Positions 17,528 to 40,566 of a stretch of DNA of 64,000 nucleotides are shown one piece after another. This DNA is from Termitomyces sp. T153. Its lineage: Eukaryota; Basidiomycota; Agaricomycetes; Agaricales; Lyophyllaceae. The notes below the pieces were generated by a model, which was not told the origin of the DNA, ran no database searches, and worked only from the letters and a program-made list of their open reading frames with translations. The position numbers were made by a program, and so were the translations under genes. The stretch is taken from positions 124,001-188,000 of the forward strand of contig JACKQL020000065.1 of the NCBI GenBank assembly GCA_018296165.2, written 5' to 3'. The stretch's first letter is position 1. Each line of letters starts with the position of its first letter.

Positions 17528-18699
17528 TGTCAGGTTCCGCTGACCTCGGGGGCTCAGCTGCACTGGGTGAGTCCTTACTAGGCGGGCATGATCCCCTTGC
17601 ACTGGTAACCGAACACTCGAAGATGTTCCGGGCCCTGGTGGCTTGTACGGATAGTTGGGGGGATGTGATCCAGACAGATCCAGGGGGTCCGGAGAAGTCG
17701 GATTGTGAGGAAACGAGACAGTCTTGGCGGGGTTCAGGCAGAAGGCCATACGGGAGATTTGTGGAAGCGAAGGATTAGGCGGCTGTGTGATCAATGGGAG
17801 CGGAGCCGGGTTTTGATGGGAGATCATTTGGAGCTGATGGAGTCCGAGACCGAGTGAAGAGCAAGGTTCGGACCTGGTAAAGGAGTGTCGGGGTTCGTAA
17901 TTGTAATCGTGGAGTTTGTGAGGTCGTTAAGGTTGATGAAGACTTGGGCACAATGGTCGGACGGAGTCACCGAGACAACGTCAGACAAAATGGGACGGGG
18001 TTGATATGGGACAAGAGTAGATTCGAATAGAGATACGAAATGATAACAAGAACAATAACAAAATGGAGATGAGACAAGACCGGGAGACTGAGATAAGACT
18101 GGGAGACTGAGGTAAGACTGGGAGACTGAGATGAGACCAGGAGACTGAGATAAGAGAACGAAACACAAAACACGGAAAGGAAACAATCAGACCATAGGTA
18201 ACGTTAAGCAATATCAAGACTAGAGTACAAAGAGCTACTCGATGACTTATATACTGACTACCGGAGGACTTCGGGGTATGTCGGCTGTGGCGGCGGGGCT
18301 TGGCAGGGCTTGACGGAGTGGGCGGGTGTCAGTTGTGATCGAGGATTGTGCCGTGCTGATACGTTGATGGGATCATTGGAGAATGCGGGTTGCCCCGAGG
18401 TTGTCGTGATACTCTGGAATAGGTCAGAGGAACCAGGGTGTTGAGTTGATGATGGGTGGCAAAGATCGGGAACAGCAGGGGTGGTTCTTGGGGTTTGGGA
18501 GGCCCAGGGTAAGTGTCAGTGGCTGCGGGGCAGGCACCGAAGTTGGCCCAGGGGGCCGTCAGAGTTAGCCGGGGAGGCGTCGGAGTTAGCCAAAGTAGGC
18601 GCGGGGCATGGGCGGAAGTTCGGCAGAGCGTTGGGGGTTTTTTGGGGGTTTGGGGGGTTGATGGATGATGTGCGGGGTTTCGGGGGACGGGTCGTGACA
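17528..18699 (-). repeat. 3' LTR of element A
   Basis: Complete LTR, TGTCAGG...GTGACA on the plus strand. On the minus strand it has a TATA box near 18,250 and the R-start motif AGTCTTGATATT at 18221-18210, about 32 nt downstream of the TATA box. That is the spacing expected for RNA polymerase II initiation. Confidence 0.85.
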
Positions 18700-18909
18700 T
18701 CACCCCCTTTCAGCGTCGAGACCCTTCGAGATGTGGGGGCAGGATGGGGATCGGCGGGGCGTGGGAGTCAAAGCCAAGCAATATTGATCAATCCACAGCG
18801 AGTGATAGCAGCGTGGGAGACGAAGTCAAAGCGCGGCCGCCGTTTCATCAGGGTTCTCCTCAATCAATTAAAAGCTTTGGGCATGCCCCAGGGTTTCCCA
18901 AATTTCGTC

Positions 18910-20040
18910 ATGTCTTCCCCCAGCGTTCCAGTAGTCTCTCCCGCCGATTTAGATGAGGTGGTGGTGTACGACAGTGGGGGTGAGGAGTTCGAGCGTCGGC
19001 GCCGGGGTAGCGTCAGGGACCGGAGTCGTAAGTGTTGTCGACTTTTCTTTTCGGGATGGTTGACGGGGTTCCTGTAGAATCGTCCATGGTAGTAGTAGTG
19101 GTTTTTTTGGGGGTCCCGAAATGGACCAAGTTTTGTCCCGCATTGCCAAAGGGGAAGGGGGTGTCCTCAGCAATGGTTCGGGGGAAGCGTCGAGCCTCCC
19201 CACCCTCAGGGGTGGGACCCAGCAAGAGGCCGCGTGGGCGTGAGTTGTCGGCGGGGCCTCCGGAGTCCTCCCTCTTTTCTCCTGTCCCGGGCGTCCCCTT
19301 GGAACGGTCGTCGAGTCCTCCCGCGCCGATCCCTTCGATCACGGAGGTCTTTCTTTGCAAGCAGGTGGAGGCCTTGACGACGTCGTTGGCAGTACGGGAG
19401 GGTGAGCTCCGACGGGCGAGGGAGGATTGTGATGCGGCGCGGACGGAGAAGGAAGCAATGGAGCGGGAGAGGAACACTTTGGTGCGCGTGGCGACGGAGC
19501 GAGCATTAGAGGTGCGGGGTTTGCGGGAGTGTTTGGCGCAGATGGAGGGGCAGCCTGCGGGGGAAGCGGAGGGGTGGGGACGAGTTCTGGAGGGGGATGC
19601 ATTGTGGGTGGAGCTGGAGGCGGCAAGGCAGAGGGAGGATTGGTTGGCCAACGAGGCCGCCTCGGGTCACGCGGGGATCCTTTGTGAGTTGTCTCCCGTT
19701 CCTCCGTTCGTTATTGACGGTTCATTTTCTGGGTTTAGGCTGGGTGCGGGAGCATCGGGTCCTCTTGGACGGTGCCTCTGCGGCGTTCGCATCGATTCAG
19801 GATGGGTTGATGCAGGGGTCCACAGTCCAGCCTCTGGAGTTGCAGCAGGGGATGGCACGATTGGAGAGGTTGTTGGCGGGGCATCGGCGATGCAATGCGG
19901 TGGCCCCGGGGTCGTGGTGGGAGGTGGTGGCCGACGTGGGGGAGGCATTGCCAGGGTTGGCGGAGGTCTTAGTGGTGGTGCGGGCCCAGATGGAGGTCGA
20001 CCTGGGGGTTGGGTTGCCGGGGGGTCCAGGGAGGGAGTGA
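18910..20040 (+). CDS. Coiled-coil protein encoded antisense to element A
   Basis: Three exons, 18910-19027, 19078-19683 and 19739-20040, with GT-AG introns of 50 and 55 nt, give 341 residues ending in TGA. The start is the ATG of MSSPSVPVVSPADL. An acidic segment (VVVYDSGGEEFERR, about residues 16-29) is followed by a basic Pro/Ser-rich part (RGKRRASPP, SKRPRG). A long heptad-rich coiled coil follows (from about residue 125: KQVEALTTSLAVREGELRR), and then a second helical region ending in GPGRE. No enzymatic motif is seen. Copies in elements B and C keep the exon layout and usable splice sites despite divergence, which argues for a real gene. The basic stretch could be a nuclear-localisation or nucleic-acid-binding patch. 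Function is unknown; a role in controlling or packaging the element is speculation. Confidence 0.65.
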
Positions 20041-22667
20041 GATGGGTGTGGGCCTCGTTTCTTGTTGCTCTCGGACTTGCTGCCTTCCCCGCCTACTGTA
20101 TATATAATTTTTTGTATGCAAACATGTCCTTTTCTTGGTTCCTGGGCGTGTGAAGTGAGATTTTTGTTTTGTATGAGGGCGAAGTAAGCGAAACACGCAG
20201 GGGTGTGAGAGGGAGTTGAATCCCTAGTGCACCCAGAGGCGGGGTTTATGCCCGCTAGTGCCATCTGTGCTGGCTAGTCCCGGGGTTTGTCGGGACGGGG
20301 CGGGGCATCGCAGGGAGGGCTCCCGGGGTCTGGCGGGGGTGGCGGGATTTCTCCAGTGGAGTCCCGCAGCATTTTGGGCGGTGTTATTTGGGTTTGATTC
20401 TCGGAAATTCTGCCTGGGGGTGTAGGGGTTCTCATTTGTCTGCGGCGGGGACGTGCACCGTATTGGTATCAGAGGGTGGACCTTCAAATTTTTCACGGTG
20501 CCCAGCAGGTTCAGGGCTTTGGTTGTCTTGGCAGTGCGGTTGGTGGGGGGGTAATGGAGGTCTTCCCATGGTCTGGCCCTTATGCCGGCACTGGTGGTGA
20601 GGGCGGCGGGGCCTTCTTCATTGGCGGGGTTTGGTGAGGCGAGGTTTGTCCTTGCAGCATAGTTGGTCCGGGTCGGGGTCGTGTTCCGGAGTGTTGCGTC
20701 TGGGGGCGGGCATGTTTCGAGTGGTGCTTTGGTGTGCTCCGGAGTGTTGATGACCGAGGGGGTAGGATGCGGGGTGATCAGTCCCAACCAGTTCCTTTGG
20801 GCCCGGGGCCGAAATTTGGGGTTCCGGATCATCTACGTGATATTGCTCTCCTGACCAAAGGTAAGCCTGAGATGGACAAAGGGGGTTTTATGTATTTCTG
20901 ATACTTCCTCGAGTTCAGAGGTCCGGGGGTTGGTGGTTCCTTCATCGGGAAGAAGTGGGTGGTCCCAGAGTTGACACAAGGGTCACTCGGTGGGGGTTTG
21001 TTGATTGTTCACGGTTGTTGGGGCGGCGGGGAGGTCGGCCGCGGGGAGGCACTGGAGTGGGGTTTCCCGGGAAATGCGGCAGGGTCGAGGCTACTCTTCA
21101 CTCGTGTTCCGGAGCGGCCTGGAGATTTGTTGCAAATGTGGGGGTGGCAGTGGGGAGAGGCACTGCTCGCTTTTCTGGAGGCTCCAATGATGTGGTCCCT
21201 GTTTGGCGGACATATTCCGGTGTAGGGACGGGATTCGGAGCGGGTGGTGATTTCTGTCGTGGAGTTGGGGCTACCAAGGTATCATTGTCGAGCTGGCGCC
21301 GTGAGTTCTCTTGATCAAATGTTGTGGTCGGAGCGGAGGCCCTGGAGTCGTGTCGCCAGGGTCCGGAGCTGTGTTGAAGGGTTTGGAGGGGTCTGGGTCG
21401 GACAGTTTTGGGCTGGTGTGGGGTTGTTTGGGTTGTCAAGCCGGGTGGGGGAGGTTCCTTGAGGATATCGGAGCGTGTGCCCTTTGGGTTGTCGGGTCGC
21501 TTAAACGGCTGATTGTCGTTTTCTGGATGATGGTGGGGCTTCTCCCTCCCTTATATGAACATGTCAGCGAATTTAGAGTACTTAGGGAACTACTTTGTAT
21601 AGGGTCCTTTTTCCTATAGTTAGTTCGGGGTGGCTCCTATGCTGGGGATTCCTTTGTGGGAGGTGGCGTAGTCTGGTGGTGGAGTTTAGGCTCGGGGGTG
21701 GCATGCAGGGGGGGTTTTGGCATCCAGGGTCCTCATTGTCAGGGGCTCCGGATTGTGTGGGGGAGGGTGGTGAAATAGCGGCATGGTCTGGAGTTGTCCC
21801 TTGTCGGGAGTGGGGTGCCGTGGTTCTCCTCATTAACATCTAGAGGCTCGGGGATGTTTTGGTCTTGTTCCAGGGTTGTTGGGGTCGGGTCGGAGGTGTC
21901 AGGGCCCCTTTATTTGTTGGGCGGAGGTGACGGCCGAATCGATCGAGGCCCGGAAGCAGGTCCTGGGGTTGGGGCGTAGCCTAGGTCTGAGGTTCTTGTT
22001 TGGTGGTTGGGGTTGTTGGGTCGAGCTTAATTTTGGTGGTTTTGGGGCTAGTTGTCGGAGGGTTTAGTTCCTCGGAAAAGGGGGGGGGGGTCGGGGTGAG
22101 GGTCGGGGGTCAATAGTAGGGTTCGGTGATGTTGTCGGCGTTTAATTGCATCTATTGGTCTGCGGAGTTGCTAGTGGGTTGGCAGATCCACAGGCAGGCT
22201 TTGAAGAAGCGTGTTCTCAGTGGTCTTATCGGGTTGGCGATCCTCATGCAAGGGGTGACTGCTTCGCGGCGGGTTGGTGTTATTGTTTGTTGGAGGGTTG
22301 GCGCGGTGCCGGAGACATTGTTGCTCGTTTGGTCGGATGGTCGGCAGGTTTTTTAGGATGTTGTTCTTTGGATGATGTTGGGGTCAACTTTGCGCGAGAG
22401 AACGGGGTGGGAGATGATTTGACGGTTTGCACGAGGGGTTGGAGGTTGGGTGGGAGTCAGGGAGGGTGTCCGTGGGGGAGCCATTGTATGGAAGTAACCG
22501 GAGCGGAGGGGACGTTTGGTGTCGGATCCACGACTCAATGTCCCTCGGCAAGTTGGGCAGGGCCGTATGAATCATAAGGGTTTCCAGGCACGGGTAGACC
22601 ATAGACATCGGAGTTATTTGATCGTGTGTGCGGAGATAATGCGGGCATCACAGACGGGGTAAGGTAG
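20041..22667. other. Rest of element A interior, no convincing gene
   Basis: GC-rich and low in complexity, with Gly/Trp-rich plus-strand and Pro/Thr-rich minus-strand frames, including a 202-codon minus frame at 20224-20832. The frames show no domain and are not kept intact in element B. An AT-rich TATATATAA near 20,098 lies just 3' of the antisense gene. A G-run occurs at 22,081-22,089. Confidence 0.5.
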
Positions 22668-22679
22668 AGTCTTGATATT
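22668..22679 (-). other. Self-priming primer-binding site of element A
   Basis: On the minus strand AATATCAAGACT lies 1 nt past the 5' LTR. It is the exact complement of AGTCTTGATATT at the predicted transcript start in the LTR. It lacks the TGG expected of a tRNA-primed site. Confidence 0.75.
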
Positions 22680-22680
22680 A

Positions 22681-22983
22681 TGTCAGGTTCCGCTGACCTC
22701 AGGGGCTCAGCTGCACTGGGCGAGTCCTTACTAGGCAGGCATGATCCCCTTGCACTGGTAACCAAACACTCGAAGACGTTCCGGGCCCTGGTGGCTTGTA
22801 CGGATAGTTGGGGGGATGTGATCCAGACAGATCCGGGGGGGTCTGGAGAAGTCGGATTGTGAGGAAACGAGACGGTCTTGGCGGGGTTCAGGCAGAAGGC
22901 CATATGGGAGATTTGTGGAAGCGAAGGATTAGGCGGCTGTGTGATCAATGGGAGCGGAGCCGGGTTTTGATGGGAGATCATTG
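22681..22983 (-). repeat. Truncated 5' LTR of element A
   Basis: 303 bp of the U5-side end of the LTR, starting TGTCAGGTTCCGCTGACC on the plus strand. Similarity stops after GATGGGAGATCAT at 22,983, where gag of Gypsy element 2 resumes. Confidence 0.8.
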
Positions 22984-23590
22984 ATGTACTCATCTAAGGA
23001 CTGCTTTCCATGACCATACTGTTCTTGGTCTTCAAGGGCAAGAGCTGCAGTCTTTGCAGGGTCAAGGGAAAAGAATTCAGCTCAGAAATCCTTCTCAACC
23101 TCTATTCAGTTCTCAAAACTGTTCACTCCTTTAGGGTGGCAAAACACATACAATGCATATGTTGAAGCTCAACTGGTTTCTATATAAGAGAGGACCCAGG
23201 CAGGTTTCAGGGCATTGGAGGCAAATGCTTTAACACTTAGCTGAATACAGGTGAAGCAGGACTGAAAAAAAATGTTCCTCAGCCTTACAATCCCCATCAA
23301 ATATGTCAGGAAGCATGAGGTGGAAAAGTTTCAAGGTGAGGAACTAAAGAGTCCAAGCTAGGTACAGAAAGAAACCTTTCTGCAGCTGCTGGAGGTGTAG
23401 TGGAGTGGTAGGAGCAGAAGGGAGGTGTCCCAGGAGGGTCTGGAGAGAGAGAGAGGGACACAGCTTCAGTGGTTTGATGTAATCTAGCAAGTTTGGCAGT
23501 GTGAGAGGTAAAGAAGGCTTGAGTAAGTTCCTGCATCTCTAGAGTCAACAAATGACTTAAGGCATTGTCCTTGGGGGCTTGAAGCATCTA
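22984..23590 (-). pseudogene. gag N-terminal half of Gypsy element 2
   Basis: The minus-strand frame 23587-23306 and its continuation to 22,984 align with gag of element 1: shared blocks are SNALKPAWVLSYIETS, TYALYVFCHP, FFSLDPAKTAALALEDQEQY and SLDEYIN. Stops and shifts occur. The frame is cut at DEYIN, where the truncated LTR of element A begins. Confidence 0.65.
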
Positions 23591-23885
23591 GGGGAGGTGC
23601 TGGAGGGGTTGATTGGGTTATAGAAGCAGCACAAGGAGTAGTAAGACACCAGTGGGGAAGAGACCTTTTAGTTGTCTCAATTTATTGAAGCAATTGAAAA
23701 GGAGGCTTCCAGAACAAAGCTAGAGACTTGTTCTGCTGTAAAGGTGATCTCTATAGGCTGTGGCTCAATCGCACAACTAGCAGAGGGAGATCCAAAGTCT
23801 ATTCAGCATTTACAAAAAGTTCCAGGGTTCCAGCTACTTGTCTGGCAAAAAGAGATTCAAAAAATCAAGTCTAAGGATTCTTAAT

Positions 23886-24440
23886 GCCAGTATTCAGAAA
23901 ATTTACTCTGGAGCTTCTAAAAAACACTCAACAACAACTAAATCCAGAATCTGTCCAAAAACAGAAATTCATTCTAAATAGCTTTGATCTCCAGCCTTGA
24001 GACACATGACCACATAGGAATATAACTGTTAGATAACTCTTAGTTGAAAGTCCTTGTTTCCAGAAGATGGGAGGGATGGAAATGAGAGGCCAGCCTGGAA
24101 TAAGGAAAACAAGAATGGGGTCCAGTATAGGCAGTCTCTTGACAGCCACTCATTCCACAAGTGATAGAGAGGACTCTTTTATGCTGGTCACTTGGGCTTG
24201 CAAGCATCATGCAGATAAATGTCCTCATCATTCCCCAGAACACCAGGTTACTCCCCAGGATGTTCATGCCTTACTCCTCTATGCTCAGCTCCTAATTCCT
24301 TCTTAAGTGCATTCACTGAGGCAGCCATAGTGCTTAACCCAAATGCTCTTATGGCTCTGATATGCATCCAGCAGGTTTTCAATGCAGGATAGCTTGCCTA
24401 TGTACCACTAGACCTCTTTACCCAACAATGCTTGCCACAG
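23886..24440. other. Unassigned CG-poor sequence
   Basis: It lies between the LTR remnant of Gypsy element 2 and the DIRS-like relic. No frame resembles a known protein. Confidence 0.35.
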
Positions 24441-27400
24441 GGAAATGACAGTGCCAAATTGCCATAGCTACATATTCCTTTCTCTCATGACCAGCACCAA
24501 ATTTCAGTTCTCTGGTATCAGATTTGACTTGAGCAAGGAGAAGGACCTGAAGCCCTTCAAGTTCATTCAGGCCTCAAGCACTCTCATCTCAGTCATCTGT
24601 CACAGCTTGAACATGGGGCTGGATGGCCAGATCAGAGGTATAGTCACAGGCAGCATAGCGGATGCTTTTTATGCCCATTACTACTGCATACAATAGCATG
24701 CCAACTTTTCAGAGATTTTCTAGGCATACCTGGCCTATGACATGCACATTTACTATGCCTACCTACACTGGCAGGGCAACCTCTGAGTGCAGGGCTGATA
24801 CAATGTTGTATTCAACAAGAAGTTCTGCCTGCAGTGCATGGGTCAACCTGCAACCTGTCTGTTTGGCCCAGGCACCTTGAGTTCCTCTAATGCAAGCACT
24901 AGTCAGTCCTTATAGCCCTCCTCTGAAAAACCCCTGTCCTGCTTGATTGCAAGCACATCCTCCAACTCCACCTCAGCAATCCTCTTTCCAGAAGACACCC
25001 CAATGCCCACCATACATGTCAGAGTCCAAGAACCACAATGGTGGCTCATGCCAGGTCTGCTGCATGGTGTGCAGCAGCAATGACCACTGTTTCAGAAGCT
25101 GCACTTGTGAGGGCAGGGTACTCTGACAGACCAACAATTGCCTTGATGTAGAGGGAGTGTCCTTCTGCTATGCATGGAACAGACCTCACTCCTGCCAGGC
25201 AATGGACTGCCCTCATTGTTACACCTGTTCCCTGTGTAAAGATGGAGTCCACTTCTGCTCAGGACTGCTCTGCATGAGTGCTTTTTGCTGGTGACAACCC
25301 TGCTGATGGTTGAGTGCTGAGCAGCAGTTTTGAATGCTGATGGTTTACAATACATATTCTTACTAGATTATTCATGTGATACCTGTTGCAATTGCCTCCC
25401 TGATTATTTCTACAGGTCTCAGAGACTTTCCCCTTACTTATACATACCCTCTGCTGAACTACTATTGCACTTTAGAGCACTATGATGTTGTCCTTAACAA
25501 ATACAAATAGGAATGTGAGTTGGCTTGTATCTCTGAGGGATACTCCTCCAACCTTATCAAACAATTGTTTGGTCATTACCAAATAGCACCATTAAATGTC
25601 ATTGAGCACACCTCTGGCAAGATATGCATTACTGTTGATCATTTCCATCCATACAACAACTCTGACATTCCATCCATCTGTCAACACCCAGATTGATTCA
25701 AAATGATTTCAATGTGACTGGAGCACATTTTATGCATGCTGGCTACTAGTGGCTGAAATGCTTGAGGCACACAAGTGGCAGTCTTTAGAAACATTCCAAC
25801 AGGCCCCTTGGCAATGCCTATACACTGCTCTGGCCATAAATGATGAAGTGGTACTCAATCAACCCACTAGTCAGAGAACCATGATGACTAGGAGAACTTA
25901 TGGAGTGTCAGAGTTTGACAGAGGTTGAACAGACAATCCACACTAACAGAAGTTCAAAGATAACAAGAATACTAAGCCCAAAGACTAATCATGGTCAGAG
26001 GACTTAGAAATTGAGCTGGAGTTTTATTGGGGATTAAGGTTAACAATTTAATTATGATTTGGAGCTGCAGAGTTAGTAGGGATAAGTGCCAGGAAATAGA
26101 TAATGTTGGGAAAGAGATACAGATAGTGCCAGAAAACTAGAGGCTGGGAAATCTATGTAGGCTAAAAGACTAAAGTACTGACTATGTTGGTATGGTACTT
26201 AGAGTAGGTCATTTGGGTCCTTAGAGGAGTTTGGGGGTTGATATGGGAATATGGAGCATATTGCCAAGGTTTAGGTTGTGCTCCAAGACTGGGAGCAGGG
26301 CAGCAGTGCCAAAACAAGATTGGTGCTGCCAGGGGTCTTAGACAAGTGCAGGATGGGTGGAGGGGTTCTGCAGTGTAAGTTCAGAGGTTCTGTCCAAACA
26401 GGAAAGGTCATTGATGTGGACTAGATAGGTTGATGGCAGGGTTTGATGGCAGGGTTTGATGGTGGGGTTGGGTGATTTGGGCGGATTGTTTGGGGGGGAT
26501 TATTTACACTTCCCAGGGCATTGAGGCACCCCTGAAGTGGATGAACAACTTCATATTTTCAGATATTTATCCTACTTGCCTAACAGCTCCTCTTATTACA
26601 AATACAATGAGGACTTGATATGGTTAGTAGCAAATGATCTGGGTTGGCCATGGGCTCTAGAAAAATTTGTACCCTTTTCCAATAATTCTATCTACACTGG
26701 CTTTGAGTGGTCCCTCAGTGCTAAATAAGTTAGCTTGCTTATACCAAAACATCTCAAGTACTTGACAAAACTCTTGACCTGAAAAAAAAGTGGCAAACTA
26801 AACTTGGTATTAACCAAATCATTGATTGGCACAATGAATCACATTATGCTTGTGGTTCCACAAGGGCACTCCCATCTTCCCTTGCTTTACTGCTTCCATG
26901 TGAGTCTTCTCCTAGGAAGCCTTGCCTGGGTAGTTCACCATATTCAGCCATGCAGTGTATGAAGACATCCTGTGATGGAGGATTACATTGGAGAATGCTT
27001 GTACCATAGTTATCATCAAACTTTCCAAACCTCAAGGCCTTTTCATTCATGTGGATGCATCAACTTTCTGGGGCATAGGCCTTGTTCTGAGAGACAAGTG
27101 GCTAGCATGGAAACTATGTCCAGGATGGACATCTCCTGAACAGAACATTGGTTCAGCCAAGATGGTTGTCATTGATCTGGCCATGCACAGCCTCATAGTG
27201 GCAAAATATTATGATTGTCACATAATGCTTTGCTCAGGAATTGCCAGTTGCATTGGAGCACTCATAGCTGGATGTTCATAAAATTCAACTACAAAGTTGA
27301 TATTACAACACATAGTTTTGAATTTCCAAGCATATTTCCATTTGGATTACAGTAGAATGGATTTCTAAACAGCTGAGAATTTTGGCAGATGGACCATTGA

Positions 27401-29002
27401 GAGGTATCTTTCCATCTTGTCAAAAACTATTCCCTTACCTACCTGTGGTTTCTGCTTACCTTAAACCTCATGTAAACCCTAGCATATAATTTGCATCATT
27501 ACCTGCAGACTGATAAAAATCCTGTAAACTCAATTAGATAGAGCTGAAATTGGCTACATGGGTGATATGACTACATTATACTTATCAGGCACAAAGAGAG
27601 TGCTTGTCAGCCTCATGATAGATGACTCTACACATACTCTGAATTGAACCTCTGACTCTTCACTGCTCACAATTGATTCTCTCATTGCTTCATTGACTTC
27701 ACAACACATCACAAACTTCATCACAAGACAATCCAGCACTTATACAGAAGATTCAGAACCCATCAATCTCATTTGCCCAGATATCAGTTGTCAGGCAAGA
27801 AAATATACCAAGACATTCCTGAAATCAAATGTAAGCCTAGTTGGTGGGCATGACACCTCTATCCCTTACATCAATACATCTTGAACCTCATATCCATCTG
27901 AGGTTCATGAACTCAGTTTTTGATAAAGAGTGTGCAGATTTGCTTATCAGACTTGAGATCCCCCTCTCAATGTGAATCAGAGGCAAGACAATGGTCCATT
28001 ACAGATCTGCTGTATCAGGTGCAGGTGCAGCTTGATAGAGGAAGAATCACAGATTCCAACCATACAACCTGGATACTTATCTTTCACCTTGTCTACATGC
28101 ATTTGGGGAGTTATAAACTGTACTTGGAAGGCTTCCACTATGGGCAAACATGCATCAGCAGGAAGACAATTTCTCTCATTCTGTACAACCAATGTGATCC
28201 CTTGAAAACATACACTGCCAGCATCAGAAATCCTTCTTTGCAAATTTGCAAGCTTGTTTGCAGTAGACTGGCTGGGAGTGCAATTGCAGCAAAGGGCATC
28301 AGGGCATGGTACATACAGCACAGTTTCTTGTATCATGAGGGTCTACAGCTTGAGTATGTCATTCAAGGTGTGGAAAATCAACAACCACTGAACTCAAAGA
28401 GACCCAAATGTCCTCCTGTTTCATTAGACCTTACAGCTGAAACTTGATTTGAATGACACCTTTGACACCTGCATCTATTTCTGTGACAACCTGCTTTTGG
28501 GCACAAATCTGTCTTAGAAAATTCTTACCAGTGAATGAACAAAATTTTAACTGTAACATGAACCCAACCTGGAAAGATTTGCAAGAGCCAACTTTGGTCA
28601 GAGGATCTAGAGTTTTGCATCTACCAAACACAAAAATGGGTGGTTTGAGAGGCAAGGATATGATTGGAACTTATCAATCCTTTGTAGACCACATAGAAGC
28701 CTTCTTTATCCATGCCCAGCTTAACTTTGCAGATCTTTTGGGGCCAATTGTGTCTTATTGTTCTCCTTCTGGCATTGTGACTCCACTGACTAGAAGGAAA
28801 TTCCTGGCACAGATAAATTCAATTGAATATGCCTTGTCTCTCTGTCTCATCTTGTAACTTCACCTACATTTTAACTTCTATCTCTTAATCAGAATGCCTG
28901 TGTAAGGACAAAATATAAGTCCATAGGAGGAGGTATGGAGGAAATGCAGAACACATTTTGGACTGAGCAATGTGGTCATGTGTCTTTGGACTCCTTGGAA
29001 TC
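24441..29002 (+). mobile_element. DIRS-like (tyrosine-recombinase) retrotransposon relic
   Basis: Fragmentary plus-strand frames follow the order seen in mushroom RT/RNase H/recombinase elements. There is a possible Cys-containing nucleocapsid-like part (24,445-25,350). The RT palm follows near 26,535-26,730: one frame gives KWMNNFIFS where WVDDF-type sequence is expected, another gives DLGWPWALEKFVPFS and FEWSLSAK. RNase H is at 27,040-27,280 (FIHVDASTFWGIGLVLRDKW). The recombinase-like C-terminal part is at 28,290-29,002 (PLTRRKFLAQINSIEYA). Frames are full of stops. Chromovirus element 1 inserted at GAATC (28998-29002), and DIRS sequence resumes at 45,399. The assignment rests on motif order and residue similarity that I recognise. 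Confidence 0.55.
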
Positions 29003-29373
29003 TGTCAGGGGACTTCCATTTCCAACCTCTGTGACTGGTTCCAGCACCTCTGCAGCTTGTTTGATGCCTCTGGGGCTCTTTCCAGAACCCTGGAGAACTC
29101 TGGAGAACTCCAGAGTTCTCTGTATTACCTCAAGCAACCATTGCCCTAGGGTTAGGAGTAGCTCCAGTCACCTGTACAGTAGTTCCCACACCTCCACCAC
29201 CTGCTGATGCACTGCACCAAGCAGCAGAGATCCTTAGACTTGTTCTCTTCAGATTCCCCTCTGCTAGGTGATTAGTTACTGACTTGTATCATGATCTACT
29301 GTGCTAATATACTTTGGATTCCCCTCTGCTAGCTGCATGACTCTAATCCATCACTCTGGAGGTTGCCCTTACA
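29003..29373 (+). repeat. 5' LTR of chromovirus element 1
   Basis: 371 bp, TG...CA. It contains AGACTTGTTCT at 29234-29244, the predicted start of R, which is complementary to the primer site at 29376-29386. No clear TATA box was found upstream of it. Confidence 0.85.
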
Positions 29374-29375
29374 AC

Positions 29376-29386
29376 AGAACAAGTCT
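29376..29386 (+). other. Self-priming primer-binding site of chromovirus element 1
   Basis: AGAACAAGTCT, 2 nt past the LTR, is the exact 11-nt complement of AGACTTGTTCT inside the LTR. The same spacing and site occur in element 2 (23724-23734, minus strand). It is not tRNA-like. Confidence 0.7.
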
Positions 29387-29965
29387 CCTAAAACTGGCCT
29401 GGAAGCCCTGCATAACCACAAGGAACCTCCAAGCCACTATCTGTCACTTCTCCACCAGGATTAAGCATCAGAGAGTTCTATGTCTCAGCTTGCCAACCCA
29501 GACACACCCTTGGAGGCTCCAGCCCCACAGGACAAAGCCTGGACTCACCTGCTCCACCTAGAAACCCCGGTGCAATTAACACAATCATCTCTTACCCACT
29601 ATATGACTGAACTCTCTACCCTCCATTAGACAATGGATCTTATCTCCCAGTCCCTCCAGGCATTGCTAGAACACCTAAGCCCTAACTCTGCCCCTCCTGT
29701 GGCTAAGGAATTAGCTCCACCTGCCATGGCACCCACTCTGGTGGCTCCAGTGACCCTGCAGCTGCAGATCCCTTGCTCAGCACTGCCAGATGCATATGAT
29801 GGTGCTTGCTCTGGTGGGAAGCAATTCCTACAGTCCTGCCTCACCTACATTCACCTCAGTAGGGACACTTTTGACTCCAATGCATTGAAAATAGCCTGGA
29901 TGCTGTTATACATGAAGACTGAACCTGCCTCCACCTACACACTGCAAGTCTTCTGCCATCCTGGA

Positions 29966-31003
29966 TGTCACAACCTGCTCCCTAGACCCTGGCATCATTT
30001 TCAGTCCTTCCCAATGCTCCGCCAAACTCCCCCAACCCTCATCCACCCTCCACACCCACTCTGGGTAACTCCAACACTTCCTCGGCAAACCCCAACGGCT
30101 CCCTGATCAATTCCAATGCCTTCTCTACAGCTGTTGATGCATCCCCTGAATTTCCCTGAACTTCCGAGACTTTCCCCACCACTTCTGACCACATCACACA
30201 ACCCTGACTCCCCACTCTAATCCCCCCAACCTGCTGGGAAGCACCCGATGACTCTGGAGCAACCCGCTTTCCAGCTGATCCCATCAGAATGTCACCATGG
30301 CCCACTCCACAATTGCACCCAACACCCATTGACTCTGTGCAGCTCTATCGAGCCCTGCTGCCATATCCTCTGTCCTCTGGAGCCACCCAGTAGTCGGTAT
30401 ATAAGTTGTAGAGTAACCCCTGGTACTTTAGTCTTGATATTGCATTTACTGGTTTCCTATGTCTCATCTTTCATCTTGTCTCTGTTTCTATTTTTAGTTT
30501 CAAATCAATCTCTTTCCTCTGTCTCATCTTGCCTTGTCTCTGTCTTGTCTTGACTGTATATATCTCCTTTGTTTCTCTAAGTTCCTTTCTTCTCCAACAT
30601 CAGCACAAACTCCACGCATGCACTATGACCCAAACATTCTTACAACAACTCCAGACCTCACTCCTTGCTCGGCCCTGGAGCCCATCAAGCCTTGGTGATC
30701 CCCCTTCAAACTCCAGCTCTGCCCCCATCAACTGCAAAGTCTCCACTTACTCCACAGTCTATTTGTGTGCCCACAAACTTGTTCCTGACACCCGCCCAGG
30801 TTCGATGTCTAATATACTTGGTTTTAGACTCCTCCAGACCATTCCAGACTTGCTCGGACCACCTCCCCTAGCTCCCCTTTGCAAGTCCCTTCACTCCACT
30901 CCGCACCAACCCTGGGATGCTAGGTTATAAGCACAGAGCATTGCATCTGCCTAGTAAGGATTTGCCAGTGTAGCTAAGCCCCCGTCATCAGCTGAACCTG
31001 ACA
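29966..31003 (+). mobile_element. Solo LTR of the A/B/C family inside gag of element 1
   Basis: 1,038 bp, TGTCACAACC to AACCTGACA, with a perfect 5-bp duplication CTGGA (29961-29965 and 31004-31008). It has a TATATAAG box near 30,398 and the AGTCTTGATATT R-start motif near 30,431. CG-poor, hence old. Confidence 0.87.
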
Positions 31004-31688
31004 CTGGAGGTGTGGGGAGCTTTCTGGACTGGGCTGTCTTTGAGAAGGACTTTTGCACAGAGTTTTTTCCATTGGACCCCGCCAAGACCACAGCACTGAT
31101 GCTGCATGACAGGGAGCAGTACAAACAAGGGAAGCATATGTTGGATGAGTACATCAACTCATTCTGAGCCCTGGTCAAACAAGCCACCTACCCCAACAGC
31201 CTTCAGCTATGCCTCACCTTCCAGGATGGCTTGCACCCTGCCTTGGTGGAACACATTAACAACCTGGTGGAGAGTTGCCCCAACAATGAAAAGATTATGT
31301 TGTAGTATGAGGTGGCCCAGGACCAATGGCAGCTCATGGAGATATGGAAGGAGCTCTGCTGCCCCCATTCCATGATGCACCCTGCTCTGGTTAGCAACTT
31401 CTGCCACCCTGCGCCTACTCACCCAGTGCTGGCCCTTGCTCCAGCTGCCCCTGCTGCTTGTCCCCTACCCCCAGGGATTCACATGGATGTGGACATGGCC
31501 CAACAACTCTGCACGGCCCCACTATTATGCTGGAGATGCAAGACACCTGGGCACTTTGCACAGCACTGTCTCCTAGACCTGGAGGTCCACTACCTTTCCA
31601 CAGTGGAGCAGGAGGAACTTCTTCTGCAGCTCCTGGCCACAAAAGATGCTGCTGGAGCTCTGTCACTGGATGAGCCCTCATTGGAGTT

Positions 31689-32825
31689 TGTCATAACCCA
31701 TCCCCTGAACCCCCGCACATCGTCCAGCAACCCCCCAATCCCCCAAAAAACCCCCAACACTCCGCCGAACTTCCACCCATGCCCCGCACCTATTTTGGCT
31801 AACTCCAACGCCTCCCCAGCTAGCTCTGACAGCCCCCTGGCCAACTTTGATGCCTTCCCCGCAGCCACTGACACTTACCCTGGATCTCCCAAACCCTGAG
31901 AACCACCCCCGCTGTTTCCGATCTTCGCTACCCATCATCAACTCAACACCCTGGTTCCTCTGGCCCATTCTGGAGTATCATGACAACCTCAGGGCGACCC
32001 GCGTTTCCAAATGATCCCAACAACATATCAGCGCGGCCCAACCCTCAATCGCAACCGACACCCGCCCACTCTGTCAAGCTCCGCCAAGCCCCGCCGCCGC
32101 AGCCGACGCACCCCGAAGTTCTCCGGTAGTTAGTATATAAGCTGTCGAGTAGCTCTTCATACTCTAGTCTTGATATTGCTTAACGTTACCTATAGTCTAA
32201 TTGTTTCCTTCTCATGTTTTGTGTTTTGTGTTTTGTGTCTCGTTTTCTTATCTCAGTCTCCCGGTCTTATCTCAGTCTCCCGGTCTTGTCTTGTCTCCAT
32301 TCCGTTATTGTTCTCGTTATTGTTTCATACCTCCACTCGAATCTACTCTTGTTCCATATCATTTCGTCTGACGCTGTCTCAGTGACTCCGTCCGACCGTT
32401 GTGCCCAAGTCATCATCAACCTTAACGACCTTACAAACTCCGTGGTTACGATTATGAACCCCGACACTCCTTCACCAAGTCCAAACCTCGCTCTTCGCTC
32501 GGTCCCGGACTCCATCAACTCCAAATGATCTCCCATCAAACCCCAGCTCTGCTCCCATTGATCACACAGCCGCCTACTCCTTCGCTTCTGCAAATCTCCC
32601 ATACGGTCTTCTGCCTGAACCCTGCCAAGACCGTCCCGTTTCCCTGCAATCCAACTTCTCCGGACCTCCCCAGATCTGTCTGGATCACATTCCACTGACT
32701 ATCTGCACAAGCCATCAGTGCCCAGAACGTTTTCGAGTGTTCGGTTACCAGTGCAAGGGGATCATGCCCGCCTAGTAAGGACTCGCCCAGTGCAGCTGAG
32801 CCCCTGAGGTCAGCGGAACCTGACA
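31689..32825 (+). repeat. 5' LTR of element B
   Basis: 1,137 bp, TGTCATAACC to AACCTGACA. TATATAA at 32134-32140 is followed 32 nt later by AGTCTTGATATT (32166-32177), the predicted first bases of the transcript. Confidence 0.88.
32134..32177 (+). promoter_or_regulatory. Core promoter and start of R in the LTR of element B
   Basis: TATATAA plus a conserved AGTCTTGATATTGC starting 32 nt from its first T. The same arrangement is seen in the other copies of this LTR that retain this part (near 11,566, 18,250, 30,398, 37,615, 38,265, 44,300 and 61,697). That conservation supports a polymerase II promoter with initiation at or near the A of AGTCTT. Confidence 0.65.
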
Positions 32826-32826
32826 T

Positions 32827-32838
32827 AATATCAAGGCT
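32827..32838 (+). other. Self-priming primer-binding site of element B
   Basis: AATATCAAGGCT, 1 nt after the LTR, pairs with AGTCTTGATATT of R at 11 of 12 positions. The exception is a G that can wobble-pair with U in RNA. Confidence 0.7.
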
Positions 32839-35352
32839 CTACCTTACCCCGTCCGTGATGCCCGTTATCTCCGCACACATGATCAAATAACTCCGATGTC
32901 TATGGTCTGCCCGTGCCTGGAAACCCTTATGATTCATATGGCCCTGCCCAATTTGCCGAGGCACATTGAGTTGCGGATCCAACACCAAAAGTCCCCTCCG
33001 CTCTGGTTACATTCATACAACGGCTCCCCCCATGGACACCCTCCCCAACTCACACCCAACCTCCAACCCCTTGTGCAAACTGCCAAATCATCTCCCACCC
33101 CACCCTCTCCGCCAAATCCATTCCCTCGCACAAAGTTGACCCCAACGTCATCCAAAGAACAGCATCCTAAAACCTGGCGACCATCCAACCAAATGAGCAA
33201 CAATGTCTCCGGCACCATGCCAACCCTCTAACAAACAATAATGCCAACCCACCACGAAACAGTCACCCATTGCGTGAGGATTGCCAGCCCCGATGAGACC
33301 ACTGAGAACATGCTTCCCCAAAGCCCGCCTGTGGATCTGCCAACCCACTAGCAACTCCGCAGACTGACGAATGCAATGACTAGCCCTGAAACCACTGAAA
33401 TCAACCCCAACAACAGAACAAGAACCCCAGACCTAGGCTACGCTCCAACCCCAGAACCTGCTTCCGGACCTTGGTTGACTTGGCCGTCACCTCCATCCAA
33501 CAAATAAAGGGGCCCCGACACCTCCGACCCAACCTTGACAACCCCAGAACAAGATCAAGACATCCCCGAGCTTCTAGACGGTCAGGAAAAGAATGACTAC
33601 ATACCCTCCACCCCGCCACCTCCCTCAAAGGAACCCCCAGCATAGGAGCCACCCCAAACTAACTATAGGAAAAAGGATCCTACACGGAGTAGTTCCCCTA
33701 AGTACTCTAAATTTGCTGACATGTTCATACAAGGGAGGGAAAAGCCCCACCATCATCCAGAGGACGTCGATCAGCTGTTCAAGCGACCTGATGACCCAAA
33801 GGGCATATGCTCCAATATCCTTAAGGGACCCCCCCCACCTGGCTTGACGACCCAAACAACCCCGTGCCAGCCCAAAACTGCCGACCCACCCCTCTGACCC
33901 CCTCCAAACCCCTCGACACAGCTCCAGACCCTGGCAACATAACTCCGGGGCCTCCACTCCAACTACAACATTTGATCAAGGGGACTTACGGTGCCAACAA
34001 CAATGCCCTGGTAGCCCCAACTCCGCAACATAAATCACCACCCACCCTGAATCCCGCCCCTATGCCGGGATATGTCCGTCAAACAGGGACCACATCATCG
34101 GAGCACCCAGAAGCAAGCCACATATGGAGTATCCTCTTTGGAGTACCCCAAAGCAGGCCACATGCAAAGTAATCTCTCGGAGTACCCTAAAGGTTGCTGA
34201 TGCCTTCCCCAAGAAGCAAGCGGTGCCTCTCCCCACTGCCACCCCACATTTGCAACAATCTCCGGGCCGCTCTGGAACATGAATGAAGAGTTGCCTCAAC
34301 CCTGCTGCAACTCCCGGGGAGCCCCACCCCAGTGCCTCCCCATGGCCGACCTCCCCGCCACCCCCCAACAATTGTGAACAACCAACAAACCCCCACCGAG
34401 TGACCCTTGTGTTGACTCCAGGACCACCCACTTCTTCCCCGATGAAGGAACCATCGACCCCCAGACCTCCAAACTCTAGGGAGTATCAGATATACGTAAG
34501 ACTCCTCTGTCCGTCTCAGGACTTATCTTTGGTCAGGGAAGCAATGTCACGTAGATGATCCGGAACCTCAAATTTCGGCTCTGGACCCAAAGGAACTGGT
34601 CGGGACTGATCACCCCACATCCTGCCCCCTCAGTCCTCGACACTCTGGAGCACACCAAAGCACCACTCGAACGTGCCTGCCCACAGACGCAACACTCCGG
34701 AACACGACCTCAACCCGGGCCAGCTATGCCGCAAGGACAAACCTCGCCCCACCGACTCCCACCAATGAAGAAGGCCCCGCCACCTTCACCACCAGCGCTG
34801 GCATAAGGGCCAGATCACGGGAAGAACCCTGCCCCCCCCCCCCCCCCACCAACCGCACTGCCAAAAAGACCAAAGCCCGAACCCACTGGACACCTGTGAA
34901 AGATTCAAAGGTCCACCCTCCGACATCAACACGGCGCATGTCCCCGCCGCAGACCAAAGAAAACCCCTACACCCCTGGTTGGAAATTCCGAGAATTGAAC
35001 TCAATACAACACCCCGAAATGCCACGGAACTCCACTGGAGAACTCCCACCACCCCTGCTGGACCTCAGGAGCCCTCCCTGCAATACCCCGCCCCGTCCCG
35101 ACAAATCCCGGGACTAGCCAGCACAGATAGGCACTAGCGGGCATAACCCCCACCTCTGGATTCACTAGGGGTTCAACTCCCTCTCACACCCTTGCGTGTT
35201 TTGCTTACTTCGCCCTCATACAAACTAAAACCTCACTTCACACACCCAGGGACCAAGAAAGGGACATGTTTGTGTACCAAAATTATATATATATACAAAA
35301 GGCGAGGGAGGCAGCAAGTCCGAGAGCAACAAGAAACGGGGCCGCACCCATC
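32839..35352. other. Element B interior upstream of the antisense gene, no convincing gene
   Basis: Counterpart of 20041-22667 in element A. Only Pro/Thr-rich plus-strand frames and their Gly-rich complements occur; none carries a domain. A run of C at about 34,832-34,848 is a likely slippage site. Confidence 0.5.
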
Positions 35353-36482
35353 TCACTCCCTCCCCGGACCCCCTGGCAACCCTACCCCCAGGTCAACTTC
35401 CATCTGGGCCCGCACCACCACTAAGACCTCCGCCAACCCTGGCAATGCCTCCCCCGCATCAGCTGCCACCTCCCACCACGACCCCGGGGCCACCGCATTG
35501 TGTTGCCGATGCCCCACCAACAACCTCTCCAATCGCGCCATCCCCTGCTGCAACTCCGGAGGCTGAACCGCGGACCCCTGCATCAACCCATCCTGAATCG
35601 ACGCGAATGCCACGGAGGCACTGTCCAAGAGGACCCGATGCTCCCGCACCCAGCCTAAACCCAGAAAATGAACCGTCAGTAACAAACGGAGGAACAGGAG
35701 ACAACTCACGAAGGATTCCTGCGCACCCCAAAGCGGCCTCGTTGGCCAACCAATCCTCCCTCCGCCTCGCCGCCTCCAGCTCTGCCCACAACACATCCCC
35801 CTCCAGAACTTGTCCCCACCCCTCTGCCTCCCCCGCAGGCTGCCCCTCCATCTGCGTCAGATGCTCCCGCAAACCCTGCACCTCTAACACTCGCTCCATC
35901 ACCACGCACACTGAAGTGTTCCTCTCCTGCTCCATCGCCTCTTTCTCTATCCGCGCCACGTCACAGTCCTCCGTCGCCCGTTGGAGCTCACCCTCCCGTA
36001 CTGCCAATGACGTTGTCAAAGCCTCCACCTGCTTGCGAAGAAAGACCTCCATGATTGAAGGAATAGGTGTGGGGGGACTCAACGACCGTTCCGAGGGAAC
36101 GCCCGGGGCAGGAGAAAAAAGGGAAGACTCCGGAGGCCCTGCTGATGACTCGCGCCCACGCAGCCTCTTGCTGGGTCCCACCCCCGAGGGCGGGGAGGCT
36201 CAATGCTTCCCCCGAATCACCACCAAGGATGCCCCCTTTCCCTTTGGCAACGCGGGACAAAACTTGGTCCGTTTCGGAACCTCCAGAAAATCCACCACCA
36301 CCACCACGGACAACTCTACAAAGCCCCATCAATCATCCTGAACAGACAAGTCGACACCACTTACGACTCTGGTCCCTGACACTAGCACGGCATCGACGCT
36401 CAAACTCCTCCCCCCCACTGTCATACACCACCACCTCGTCCAAAGCAGTGGGAGAGACTACTGGAACGCTGGGGGAAGACAT
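35353..36482 (-). pseudogene. Antisense coiled-coil gene of element B, one nonsense mutation
   Basis: Same three-exon layout as in element A, read on the minus strand from ATG 36482 to the stop at 35353. Intron 1 (donor after GACCAGAGTC) and intron 2 (donor after CTTC, about 35,712) keep GT-AG ends. Exon 2 carries VEALTTSLAVREGELQRATE, and exon 3 ends GPGRE as in A. The CGA codon after RGK in A is TGA here (36202-36200), a single C-to-T change at a CG site. The rest of the frame stays open, so the loss looks recent. Confidence 0.65.
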
Positions 36483-36682
36483 GACAAAATTTGGGAAATT
36501 CTGGGGTACATCCAAAGCTTTTAATTGATTGAGGAGAACCCTGACAAAGCGGCGGCCGCGCTTCAACTTCGTCTCCCATGCCGCTATCACTCGCTGCGGA
36601 TTGATCAATATTGCTTGGCTTTGACTCCCACACCCCGCTGATCCCCGTCCTGCTCCCCGCGTCTCGAAGGGTCTCGACACTG

Positions 36683-36694
36683 AAGGGGGGGTGA
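36683..36694 (+). other. Polypurine tract of element B
   Basis: AAGGGGGGGTGA directly abuts the TGTCACGACC start of the 3' LTR. Element A (18711-18700, minus strand) and element C (61241-61252) have the same tract in the same place. It fixes the sense direction of the family. Confidence 0.75.
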
Positions 36695-38953
36695 TGTCAC
36701 GACCCGTCCCCTGAACCCCCACACATCGTCTAGCAACCCCCCAATCCCCCAAAAAAACCCCGACGCTCCGCCGAACTTCCACCCATGCCCTGCGCCTATT
36801 TTGGCTAACTCCGACGCCTCCCCAGCTAACTCTGACGGCCCCCTGGCCAACTTTGATGCCTTCCCCACAGCCACTGACACTTACCCTGGATCTCCCGAAC
36901 CCCGAGAACCACCCCCACTGTTCCTGATTGTCAGGTTCCGCTGATCTCGGGGGCTCAGCTGCACTGGGCGAGTCCTTACTAGGCGGGCGTGATCCCCTTG
37001 TACTGGTAACCAAACACTCAAAAATGTTCCAGGCACTGATGACTGGTGTGGGTAGTCGGTGGGATGTGATCCAGACAGATCTGGGGAGGTCTGGAGAAGT
37101 CGGATTGCGAGGAAACGGAAGGCCTTGGCGGGGTTCAGGCAGAAGACCATATGGGGGGATTCGTGGAAGCGAAGGAGTAGGTGGCGGTGTGATCAATGGG
37201 AGCAGAGCCAGGGTTTGATGGGAGATCAATGGGAGTTGATGGAGTCCAGGACCGAGCAAAGAATGAGGTTCAGACTGGTGAAAGAGTGTCGGGGTTTGTA
37301 ATCATAATCGCGGAGTTTGTGGGGTCGTCTAGGTTGATAAGGACTTGGGCCCAATGGCTGGACGGAGTCACCAAGACAGCGTCAGATGAAATGGAATGGA
37401 GTCAATATGGAACAAGAGTAGATTCGAGTGGAGATATGAAACAATAACAAGAACAATAATGAAATGGAGACAAGACAAGACCGGGAGACTGAGAGTAAGG
37501 AAAACAAGACACAAAACACAAAACACAAAACACAAAACACGAGAAGGAAACAATCAGACCATAGGTAACATTAAGCAATATCAAGACTAGAGTATGAAGA
37601 GCTACTTGACGGCTTATATACTGACTACTGGAGAACTTCGGGTACGTCGGCTGCGGTGGCAGGGCTTGGCGGAGCTCGACGGAGTGGGCAGGTGTTGGTT
37701 GCGATCAAGGATTGGGCCGCACTGATACGTTGATGGGATCATTGGGGAACGCAGGTCGCCCCAAGGTTGTTGTGATACTCCAGAATAGGTTGGAGGAACC
37801 AGGGTGTTGAGTTGATGATGGGTGGCAAAGATCGGAAACAGTGGGGGCGGTTCTCAGGGTTTGGGAGATCCAGGGTAAGTGTCAGTGGCTGCGGGGAAGG
37901 CATTGAAGTTGGCCAGGGGGCCATCAGAGTTAGCCGGGGAGGCGTTGGAGTTAGCCAAAATAGGCGCGGGGCATGGGCGGAAGTTTGGCAGAGCGTCAGG
38001 GGTTTTTTGGGGGGTCGGGGGGTTGATGGACGATGTGCGGGGGTTCAGATCTTCGCCACCCATCATCAACTCAACACCCTGGTTCCTCTGACCCATTCTG
38101 GAGTATCATGACAACCTCGGGGCGACCCGCATTTCCAAATGATCCCAACAACGTATCAGCGCGGCCTGACCCTCGATCGCAACCGACACCCGCCCACTCC
38201 ATCAAGCTCCGCCGAGCCCCGCTGCCGCAGCCAACGCACCCCAAAGTTCTCCAGTAGTTAGTATATAAGCTGTCGAGTAGCTCTTCGTACTCTAGTCTTG
38301 ATATTGCTTAACGTTACCTATGGTCTGATTGTTTCATTCTCATGTTTTGTGTTTTGTGTTTTGTGTCTCGTTTTCTTATCTCAGTCTCCTGGTCTTATCT
38401 CAGTCTCCCGGTCTTGTCTTGTCTCCATTCCGTTATCATTCTCGTTATTGTTTTGTACCTCCACTCGAATCTACTCTTGTTCCATATCATTTCGTCTGAC
38501 GCTGTCTCGGTGACTCCGTCCGACCATTGTGCCCAAGTCTTCATCAACCCTAACGACCTCACGAACTCCGCGATTACGATTACAAACCCTGACACTCCTT
38601 CACCAAGTCCAAACCTCGCTCTTCGCTCGGTCCCGGACTCCATCAACTCCAAATGATCTCCCATCAAACCCCGGCTCCGTTCCCATTGATCACACAGCTG
38701 CCTACTCCTTCGCTTCTGCAAATCTCCCATACGGTCTTCTGCCTGAACCCTGCCAAGACCGTCCTGTTTCCCTGCAATCTGACTTCTCCAGACCTCCCCA
38801 GATCTGTCTGGATCACATCCCACTGACTATCTGCACAAGCCATCAGTGCCCAGAACATTTTCAAGTGTTCGGTTACCAGTGCAAGGGGATCACGCCCGCC
38901 TAGTAAGGACTCGCCCAGTGCAGCTGAGCCCCCGAGGTCAGTGGAACCTGACA
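36695..38953 (+). repeat. 3' LTR of element B, interrupted
   Basis: Two pieces, 36695-36928 and about 38048-38953, read through into each other in LTR order (…CTGTTCCTGAT then GATCTTCGCCACCC…). They are separated by an LTR of the same family in opposite orientation. Apart from this interruption the 3' LTR is close to the 5' LTR. Confidence 0.8.
36929..38047 (-). mobile_element. Inverted solo LTR inside the 3' LTR of element B
   Basis: It starts TGTCAGGTTCCGCTGATC and runs through the minus-strand R motif and TATA region. It ends in GTGCGGGGGTTCAG, lacking the final ~16 bp (GGGACGGGTCGTGACA) seen in the LTR of element A. Only GAT is shared at the two junctions, so a clean 5-bp duplication is not visible. 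Inverted recombination between LTRs is an alternative to insertion plus end loss. Confidence 0.75.
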
Positions 38954-39594: not shown

Positions 39595-39609
39595 TCTGAG
39601 GTTGATTGG

Positions 39610-40551: not shown

Positions 40552-40566
40552 TCTGAGGTTGATTGG

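Follow-up and report, generated by a model that had tools for sequence, protein, structure and literature searches.

The window analysed here is a stretch of 64,000 nucleotides from the basidiomycete Termitomyces sp. T153 (contig JACKQL020000065.1, positions 124,001 to 188,000 of the forward strand; coordinates below count from its first letter), and it contains three copies, A, B and C, of a long terminal repeat (LTR) retrotransposon family that carries a three-exon gene antisense to the element. Large retrotransposon derivatives (LARDs) are defined as LTR, primer site and purine tract around a non-coding interior that lacks gag-pol. A, B and C are probably LARD-like, pol-less satellites of a self-primed chromodomain Gypsy element, and they appear to have retained the antisense accessory gene of their full-pol relative. 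The anatomy, homology, common priming signals, corresponding introns and coding constraint on the antisense frame that carry this reading are all established at the level of sequence. The original prediction of a coherent antisense gene in a pol-less family stands; the idea that a LARD had freshly captured it does not, because a full-pol chromovirus carries the same gene in antisense orientation.

The LTR of the family is ~1.15 kb long, starts with TGTCACGACCC and ends with CCTGACA, as judged from self-comparison of the window and 20 fetched stretches. The 300-bp LTR proposed earlier corresponds to the last quarter of this repeat, an error that arose because the 5' LTR of A is cut off at 22982. 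Element A lies on the minus strand and comprises the following features, with the basis of each in brackets:

17528..18699, minus strand: 3' LTR of A, full length, 1172 bp (self-comparison and fetched copies)
18209..18221, minus strand: AGTCTTGATATTG, predicted sense transcript start and self-primer (12/13 complementary to the primer site, the 13th being G-U)
18246..18253, minus strand: TATATAAG, predicted TATA box of the sense promoter in A's LTR (sequence)
18700..18713, minus strand: polypurine tract, adjoining the 3' LTR (copy comparison)
18700..22680, minus strand: interior, 3981 bp, gag/pol not detected (tblastn)
18714..18909, plus strand: putative promoter and 5' untranslated region of the antisense gene (sequence)
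18779..18791, plus strand: CAATATTGATCAA, conserved motif in the putative antisense promoter (sequence)
18910..19027, plus strand: exon 1 of the antisense gene, with the acidic YDSGGEEFE (copy comparison)
19028..19077, plus strand: intron 1, GTAAGT..TAG (copy comparison)
19078..19683, plus strand: exon 2, with a basic patch and coiled coil (sequence)
19684..19738, plus strand: intron 2, GTGAGT..TAG (copy comparison)
19739..20040, plus strand: exon 3, with a C-terminal conserved domain and the stop (sequence)
20096..20120, plus strand: AT-rich stretch, possible antisense polyadenylation region (sequence only)
22663..22680, minus strand: primer binding site TAATATCAAGACTCTACC (copy comparison)
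22681..22982, minus strand: truncated 5' LTR (self-comparison and fetched copies)

B and C lie in the opposite orientation and comprise:

31689-38953, plus strand: B, whole element (self-comparison and fetched copies)
31689..32825, plus strand: 5' LTR of B (self-comparison and fetched copies)
32826..36694, plus strand: interior of B, 3869 bp (copy comparison)
about 36485-35353, minus strand: antisense gene of B, with one premature stop (copy comparison)
36695..38953, plus strand: interrupted 3' LTR of B, in pieces 36695-36928 and about 38044-38953 (self-comparison)
36929-38046, minus strand, opposite to B: solo LTR splitting B's 3' LTR (self-comparison)
58283..61933, plus strand: C, a diverged relative with a decayed antisense gene on the minus strand (self-comparison)
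from 61253, plus strand: piece of the 3' LTR of C (self-comparison)

The primer site directly follows the 5' LTR and the purine tract directly precedes the 3' LTR in A and B. Both signals are present in all 20 copies read, the primer site as TAATATCAAGACTCTACC with small changes in a few. Target duplications of 5 bp, read by eye, are found in 11 of the 14 copies that have both full ends and flanks, and GAGTT is duplicated in the flanks of B. For A and B, LTR comparison and tblastn bear out the predicted combination of LTR, primer site, purine tract and gag/pol-free interior; the decayed third copy, C, lies outside the range first given for the family, at 58.3-61.9 kb. Measured against the LARD definition, the paired LTRs, primer site, purine tract and duplication are present and the interior is free of gag and pol, but it is not non-coding, as it holds an antisense gene under constraint. 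A second LTR 3' end (17216-17527) is joined directly to A's 3' LTR, which together with the truncated 5' LTR suggests insertion of A into, or recombination with, another copy.

Within A's LTR, AGTCTTGATATTG lies ~30 nt past TATATAAG and is complementary to the primer site TAATATCAAGACT, and the chromovirus relative described below has the same layout of TATA box and primer, with 13/13 bases complementary to its primer site. The primer-site complement thus stands at the expected distance from the TATA box in both elements, the transcript start being a predicted one. The primer site does not begin with TGG, and self-priming fits. This layout, as in self-primed elements, fixes the sense strand and makes the three-exon gene antisense.

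The exons of A's antisense gene join into an open frame of 1026 nt (341 aa). As originally described, the frame is open in A and carries a single premature stop in B and several stops in C, and both introns keep GT-AG ends in A, in B and in C (the last with GTGAGC..AG and GTAAGT..AG). Heptad periodicity is significant at p=0.0005 for A and 0.01 for the protein P0146, over stretches chosen by the analyst. Six of the 120 listed matches (of 198) among predicted Termitomyces proteins have 341 aa, and the three of these that were examined (P0002, P0005 and P0006) all cross both exon junctions as in the proposed A model. We infer that the antisense gene is transcribed and spliced. A profile search of solved structures returned a similarity to SNAP-25 (two chains, E 0.36-0.43), which was judged a chance coiled-coil likeness.

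Diverged Termitomyces relatives of the protein possess an extra segment with the pattern C-x2-C-x6-C-x15-C-x2-C-x6-C. The Zn2Cys6 consensus consists of six cysteines with the C-x2-C-x6-C spacing twice, and the chromovirus version of the protein has this spacing. A spacer of 15 is found without exception in the 58 proteins, out of 254, that show the pattern, and all six cysteines are present in 42 of the 59 proteins spanning the region, the other 17 mostly having missing pieces or a changed cysteine. The segment is absent from the A-type protein, and neither A nor B has the six-cysteine pattern.

Complete elements carrying this zinc-cluster version were found elsewhere in the genome. In L069 and L070 (with L071), the gene runs antisense in the space that separates pol from the purine tract and 3' LTR. 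The pol open reading frame (ORF) of L070, 1394 aa long, contains protease, RVT_1, RNase H, integrase (rve), SH3_Tf2-1 and Chromo domains, and RVT_1, RNase H, rve and Chromo all score above cut-off in this one ORF, as befits a chromovirus. L069 has a 234-aa ORF upstream of pol that is gag-like by position only. The element that includes L069 (C65:23778-34598) has 998-bp LTRs that are 99.3% alike, GTGTA on both flanks, and a pol in two open stretches. Genome-wide, the zinc version gave 2854 loose first-look candidates, overlapping between queries, of which the best 91 were scored. A pol end lies on the opposite strand 192-600 nt downstream in 79 of these 91 gene rows and on the same strand in none (0/91); the 91 are the first rows of 115, the other 24 being second pieces of the same genes, and some are duplicates, as suggested by equal scores on C65, C180 and C241. 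The 12 unpaired rows may reflect pol scoring, which covered the best 131 places of 3179 candidates, and 48 of the 91 rows are stop-free. The tail-to-tail antisense position between pol and 3' LTR is found in the chromovirus relatives; A and B have no pol.

The gene of L069 has three introns. The outer two are the counterparts of the introns of A, and the middle one also occurs in C, whose antisense gene has a zinc-cluster exon and an extra intron relative to A. The A family lacks the last part of the second exon, together with the middle intron and the zinc-cluster segment, and the frame reads on across the loss. The self-primer, primer site and purine tract are likewise common to A and the chromovirus.

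Interiors of the satellites were searched by tblastn with the pol and gag-like ORF of this relative. Both positive controls were found, and no pol or gag-like match at E 1e-3 occurred in any of 20 interiors (A, B and 18 others, among which L011, L014, L015 and L018 are not independent), the probe representing one chromovirus lineage with a gag-like ORF named by position only. Those four copies have the same 5' flanking bases, and L014 and L015 end at a contig end, which points to duplicates or assembly effects rather than independent insertions. Across the searched genome (72 Mb, 307 contigs), LTR-primer-site junctions number 1021 matches at <=3 mismatches, with 0 for the reversed-pattern control. 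Twenty exact matches near the top of the list of 1021, all on contigs C1 to C5 and none of them a known copy, were followed for 800 bases each, and 19 run into A-type pol-less interior through all 800 bases; the last (L062) follows the same interior for 68 bases and then enters an inverted piece of it. Wherever the shortened gene was seen, pol was undetectable (20/20 interiors). A zinc-type satellite, L072, is 69% like A in its LTR and 65% in its interior over 1.7 kb, and its interior gave no pol match; this common interior makes it likely that A-type and zinc-type satellites descend from a pol-less ancestor. L017 (140-1531 and 8013-9258) presents an A-type copy inside a diverged element whose interior is mostly gone, perhaps a further reduced form of the lineage.

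The integrity of the frame was followed in 41 aligned copies, namely A, B and 39 others, the others being the best DNA matches to A (best 40 of 577 candidates scored). After splicing, 39 of the 41 measure 1026 nt, and 25 of those 39, A included, have a terminal stop only. Dropping six near-identical copies (98.5% or more) leaves a non-redundant set of 35, of which 21 have an ATG, no indel and no premature stop. GT-AG is kept at both introns in 31 of the 35 (17 of the 21 intact-frame copies), and the other four show one donor G to A change. Indel cells number 2 in 1026 exon bases, 3 in the introns and 90 in 387 flanking bases, shared events being counted once per copy. Sixteen exon-2 copies in different places have an identical score (353.6 bits), suggestive of one satellite subfamily having expanded recently.

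Coding constraint was evaluated under a null model in which the observed changes are re-dealt among sites of the same trinucleotide context. Against reference A, the antisense frame has an omega (ratio of nonsynonymous to synonymous change, dN/dS) of 0.55 and stops at 0.43 of expectation; over 21 reference copies, the medians are 0.62 and 0.57. Copies without a new stop relative to A number 22 of 40, against 5.9 or 7.5 expected (two null calculations), and three other references give a smaller excess (26 vs 12.4, 26 vs 17.7 and 19 vs 10.7 expected). Two checks set for the gene thus came out in its favor: intact frames exceed the null expectation for 4/4 reference copies, and dN/dS of the antisense frame lies below 1. 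Distinct changes seen in 20 or more copies have an omega of 0.46.

A deeper comparison was made in exon 3. Between A-type (4 copies) and zinc-type (6 stop-free copies, the interior of one having been viewed), dN is 0.136 and dS 0.691, a ratio of 0.20 (24 pairs), and five control frames give 0.36-1.63, the lowest being a sense frame. The ratio is 0.32 for A-type against two chromovirus copies (8 pairs) and 0.21 for zinc-type against chromovirus (12 pairs; dS 1.69, near saturation). Within groups it is 0.32 for zinc-type (15 pairs), 0.24 for A-type (6 pairs) and 0.69 for the single chromovirus pair, at very low divergence.

Conservation extends upstream of the gene. From the purine tract to the ATG (18703-18917), A and the chromovirus are 73% alike, and the gene itself is 61.5% alike; we read this region as a putative antisense promoter. 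A, B and both chromovirus copies contain the motif CAATATTGATCAA within it unchanged, and C has it with one mismatch. It is exact in 45 of 78 fetched loci and, at one mismatch, occurs 4 times in the window compared with 0.13 expected by chance, one occurrence (12315) lying beside another LTR. A diverged LTR of the same wider family (about 66-69% alike) is found at 11218-12265, with a near-match of CAATATTGATCAA 50 bp past its end.

In the mechanism we propose, a promoter lying between the 3' LTR and the ATG would drive transcription of the gene, the transcript would be spliced, and the product would be a nuclear coiled-coil protein. The chromovirus version, with its zinc-cluster-like motif, probably binds DNA and regulates the element. 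The introns would stay in the replicating copy and be retained through retrotransposition because the gene is antisense to the reverse-transcribed RNA. Satellites would be copied by the proteins of a related complete element via their common LTR ends, self-primer, primer site and purine tract, and the gene would persist there through its action on behalf of its own carrier element. The short satellite version may act without a zinc cluster, perhaps by pairing with the helper's protein, although this is a guess. A more far-reaching proposal, which we consider doubtful, is that the satellites evolved their own shortened regulator, which lost the zinc cluster, kept the coiled coil and C-terminal domain, pairs with the helper protein and tips activity to the satellite. 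If true, the shortened gene would be an accessory gene employed where a retrotransposon and its parasite are in conflict.

Several observations weigh against interpreting A, B and C as satellites with a constrained gene. Many public gene models of the family deviate in length and exons from the 341-aa form, so that annotation lends support to splicing but is not proof of it. Omega among A-type copies is moderate (0.55-0.76), and when each distinct change is counted once it is 0.71 for changes in one copy and 0.73 for those in two or more, which fits decay after insertion and also fits weak constraint. The aligned copies were those with the best DNA match to A, and freedom from stops was the criterion for the six zinc-type copies in exon 3; both choices bias the sets towards intact frames. 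The depth comparison covers exon 3 only, with the interior read for one zinc-type satellite, L072, whose zinc segment has a stop. Of 15 proteins scanned, 8 list Pfam Zn_clus at all, and there it stays below the gathering score (11-15 bits vs 21); the gag-like ORF of L069 has no Pfam match. The chromovirus LTRs match A's LTRs only in pieces (64% and 80%), and no helper with A-type LTRs was found among the 20 sampled junctions of 800 bases each. Finally, CAATATTGATCAA may serve the sense strand.

Exon 2 also gives little separation, with similar omega on the two strands (antisense 0.65-0.77, sense 0.68-0.83). This bears on the possibility that the real gene is an element-sense ORF of 359 aa (19016-20092) and the antisense frame its mirror image. 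The longest sense stretch reaches 359 aa or more in 21 of the 41 rows, and exon 2 cannot decide between the frames because their third positions coincide and omega is nearly equal. Where the frames separate, in exon 3, omega is 1.09-1.59 for sense (measured over exon 3 plus 52 bases) versus 0.39-0.64 for antisense across four references, and 0.96-1.11 versus 0.69-0.75 with distinct changes counted once; whole-length stops are at 0.75-0.92 and 0.43-0.57 of expectation, respectively. The sense ORF also spans both introns and is interrupted in A itself, and the antisense introns correspond in the chromovirus. On the exon 3 omega and the whole-length stop ratios we reject it as the real gene and hold it to be highly improbable.

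A different objection accepts the antisense gene and places selection only in complete elements, the satellites being young dead copies whose frames are intact through recent or repeated derivation. The distinct-change omega of 0.71-0.73 is in keeping with this, as are the 19 measured LTR pairs, which are 91-99% alike, and the wider set, in which 38 of the 150 exon-2 rows listed contain a stop. Nevertheless, the shortened gene is confined to pol-less elements in the 20 interiors, and A-type and one zinc-type satellite have a common pol-less interior, yet exon 3 shows a dN/dS of 0.20 at dS 0.69, a figure for which one of the six zinc-type interiors was viewed; we therefore regard this account as unlikely. 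Less probable still is capture of a host gene by the element, for which the introns and zinc-cluster-like motif, reminiscent of fungal regulators, would speak. All relatives among the matches listed (120 of 198, 119 of 119 and 120 of 222, with the best 7993-7995 candidates sharing most words scored in each search) are from Termitomyces, the gene is already present in chromovirus copies, and no single-copy host homologue was seen, though none was specifically searched for. Similar repeated proteins may occur in other Agaricales, and an ancient capture by an ancestor of the elements is possible. A comparably slim chance attaches to the view that antisense RNA rather than protein matters, with double-stranded RNA dampening the element. 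Pol and the gene point towards each other with their 3' ends 192-600 nt apart, and the double-stranded RNA idea is discussed for plant elements in the available text of PMC7264820; if only the RNA acted, constraint at the level of codons, introns in corresponding positions and six cysteines at a fixed spacing would not be predicted.

Retention of the accessory gene by pol-less satellites has partial parallels. The plant aORF-3R genes (Grande gene23, RIRE2, Retand TRP28, PvRetro13) occupy an antisense position between pol and 3' LTR in Gypsy elements, are conserved in most copies and are suspected of a nuclear or DNA-binding role, according to the accessible parts of PMC7264820 and PMC11963269. 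The latter source, in the portion available, reports that nearly all Retand elements carry TRP28, predicted to be DNA-binding, and that 10 of 63 Retand clusters are without one or two gag-pol domains with TRP28 still present. PMC7264820 calls for examining spliced transcripts, and the word 'intron' is absent from the available text of both papers. Like these plant elements, the relative described here is a Gypsy element whose antisense gene sits in this position; unlike them, it is a chromovirus, its zinc-cluster/coiled-coil gene has introns, and it has satellites without detectable gag-pol. TRP28 is a different protein, compared here via Pfam only, where our proteins have no match. In fungi, the antisense gene brtn of Boty was reportedly described by Zhao et al. 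in 2011. Boty of Botrytis cinerea is a fungal retrotransposon with this additional antisense gene, as cited in the available parts of PMC7264820 and PMC8365987. Boty belongs to an ascomycete and the present family to a basidiomycete, and brtn was compared by description only. HBZ of human T-cell leukemia virus type 1 (HTLV-1) is spliced and has a coiled-coil bZIP. It is an antisense accessory gene with a nuclear product (PMC11963269, in part), the HTLV antisense promoter lies in the 3' LTR (PMC7264820, in part), and antisense retroviral genes are the subject of PMC10186651, as far as its available text goes. HTLV-1 is a retrovirus and no homology is claimed; in our elements, the promoter would lie in the interior beside the LTR.

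LARDs are reported in the mushroom Laccaria bicolor (PMC3411680, in whose available text the word 'antisense' does not occur), and unlike them as reported, the family here retains a constrained antisense gene. The chromovirus relative resembles the self-primed Tf1/sushi chromoviruses, whose priming mechanism is treated in the accessible part of PMC2864245, in its chromodomain and SH3_Tf2-1, but differs in its antisense accessory gene and satellites. The initial view that such an arrangement had not been described was too strong as to its kind, given the plant genes and Boty, and appears to hold for the fungal pol-less, intron-bearing, zinc-cluster form: no fungal pol-less element with such an antisense gene was found in a literature search of partial coverage. 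Apparently new, as far as we are aware, are the occurrence in a basidiomycete, the presence of introns, the combination of zinc cluster and coiled coil, and constraint within a lineage that lacks pol. LTR elements that are not autonomous are commonly regarded as passive passengers. In this case, purifying selection seems to have preserved a single protein gene in a pol-less lineage even after the requirements for reverse transcription were lost, which suggests that the backward gene does something useful for the element. Antisense orientation would also be an easy route by which a retroelement can harbor a spliced gene, since the RNA that is copied keeps the gene's introns. Because the satellite separates the gene from gag and pol, the role of antisense accessory genes becomes directly testable.

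The window gave no Rfam match at gathering scores. A different chromovirus-like Gypsy element occupies 29003-45398, with ~370-bp LTR pieces 83% alike, and is interrupted by B and other LTR insertions; its pol and that of the chromovirus relative match at 38%. Host-like genes encode a Fungal_trans domain protein (56104-57099) and an OST48 N-terminal domain (52991-53599), and a kinase-like stretch just below the Pfam cut-off (828-2138) lies in the GC-rich (66%) start of the window.

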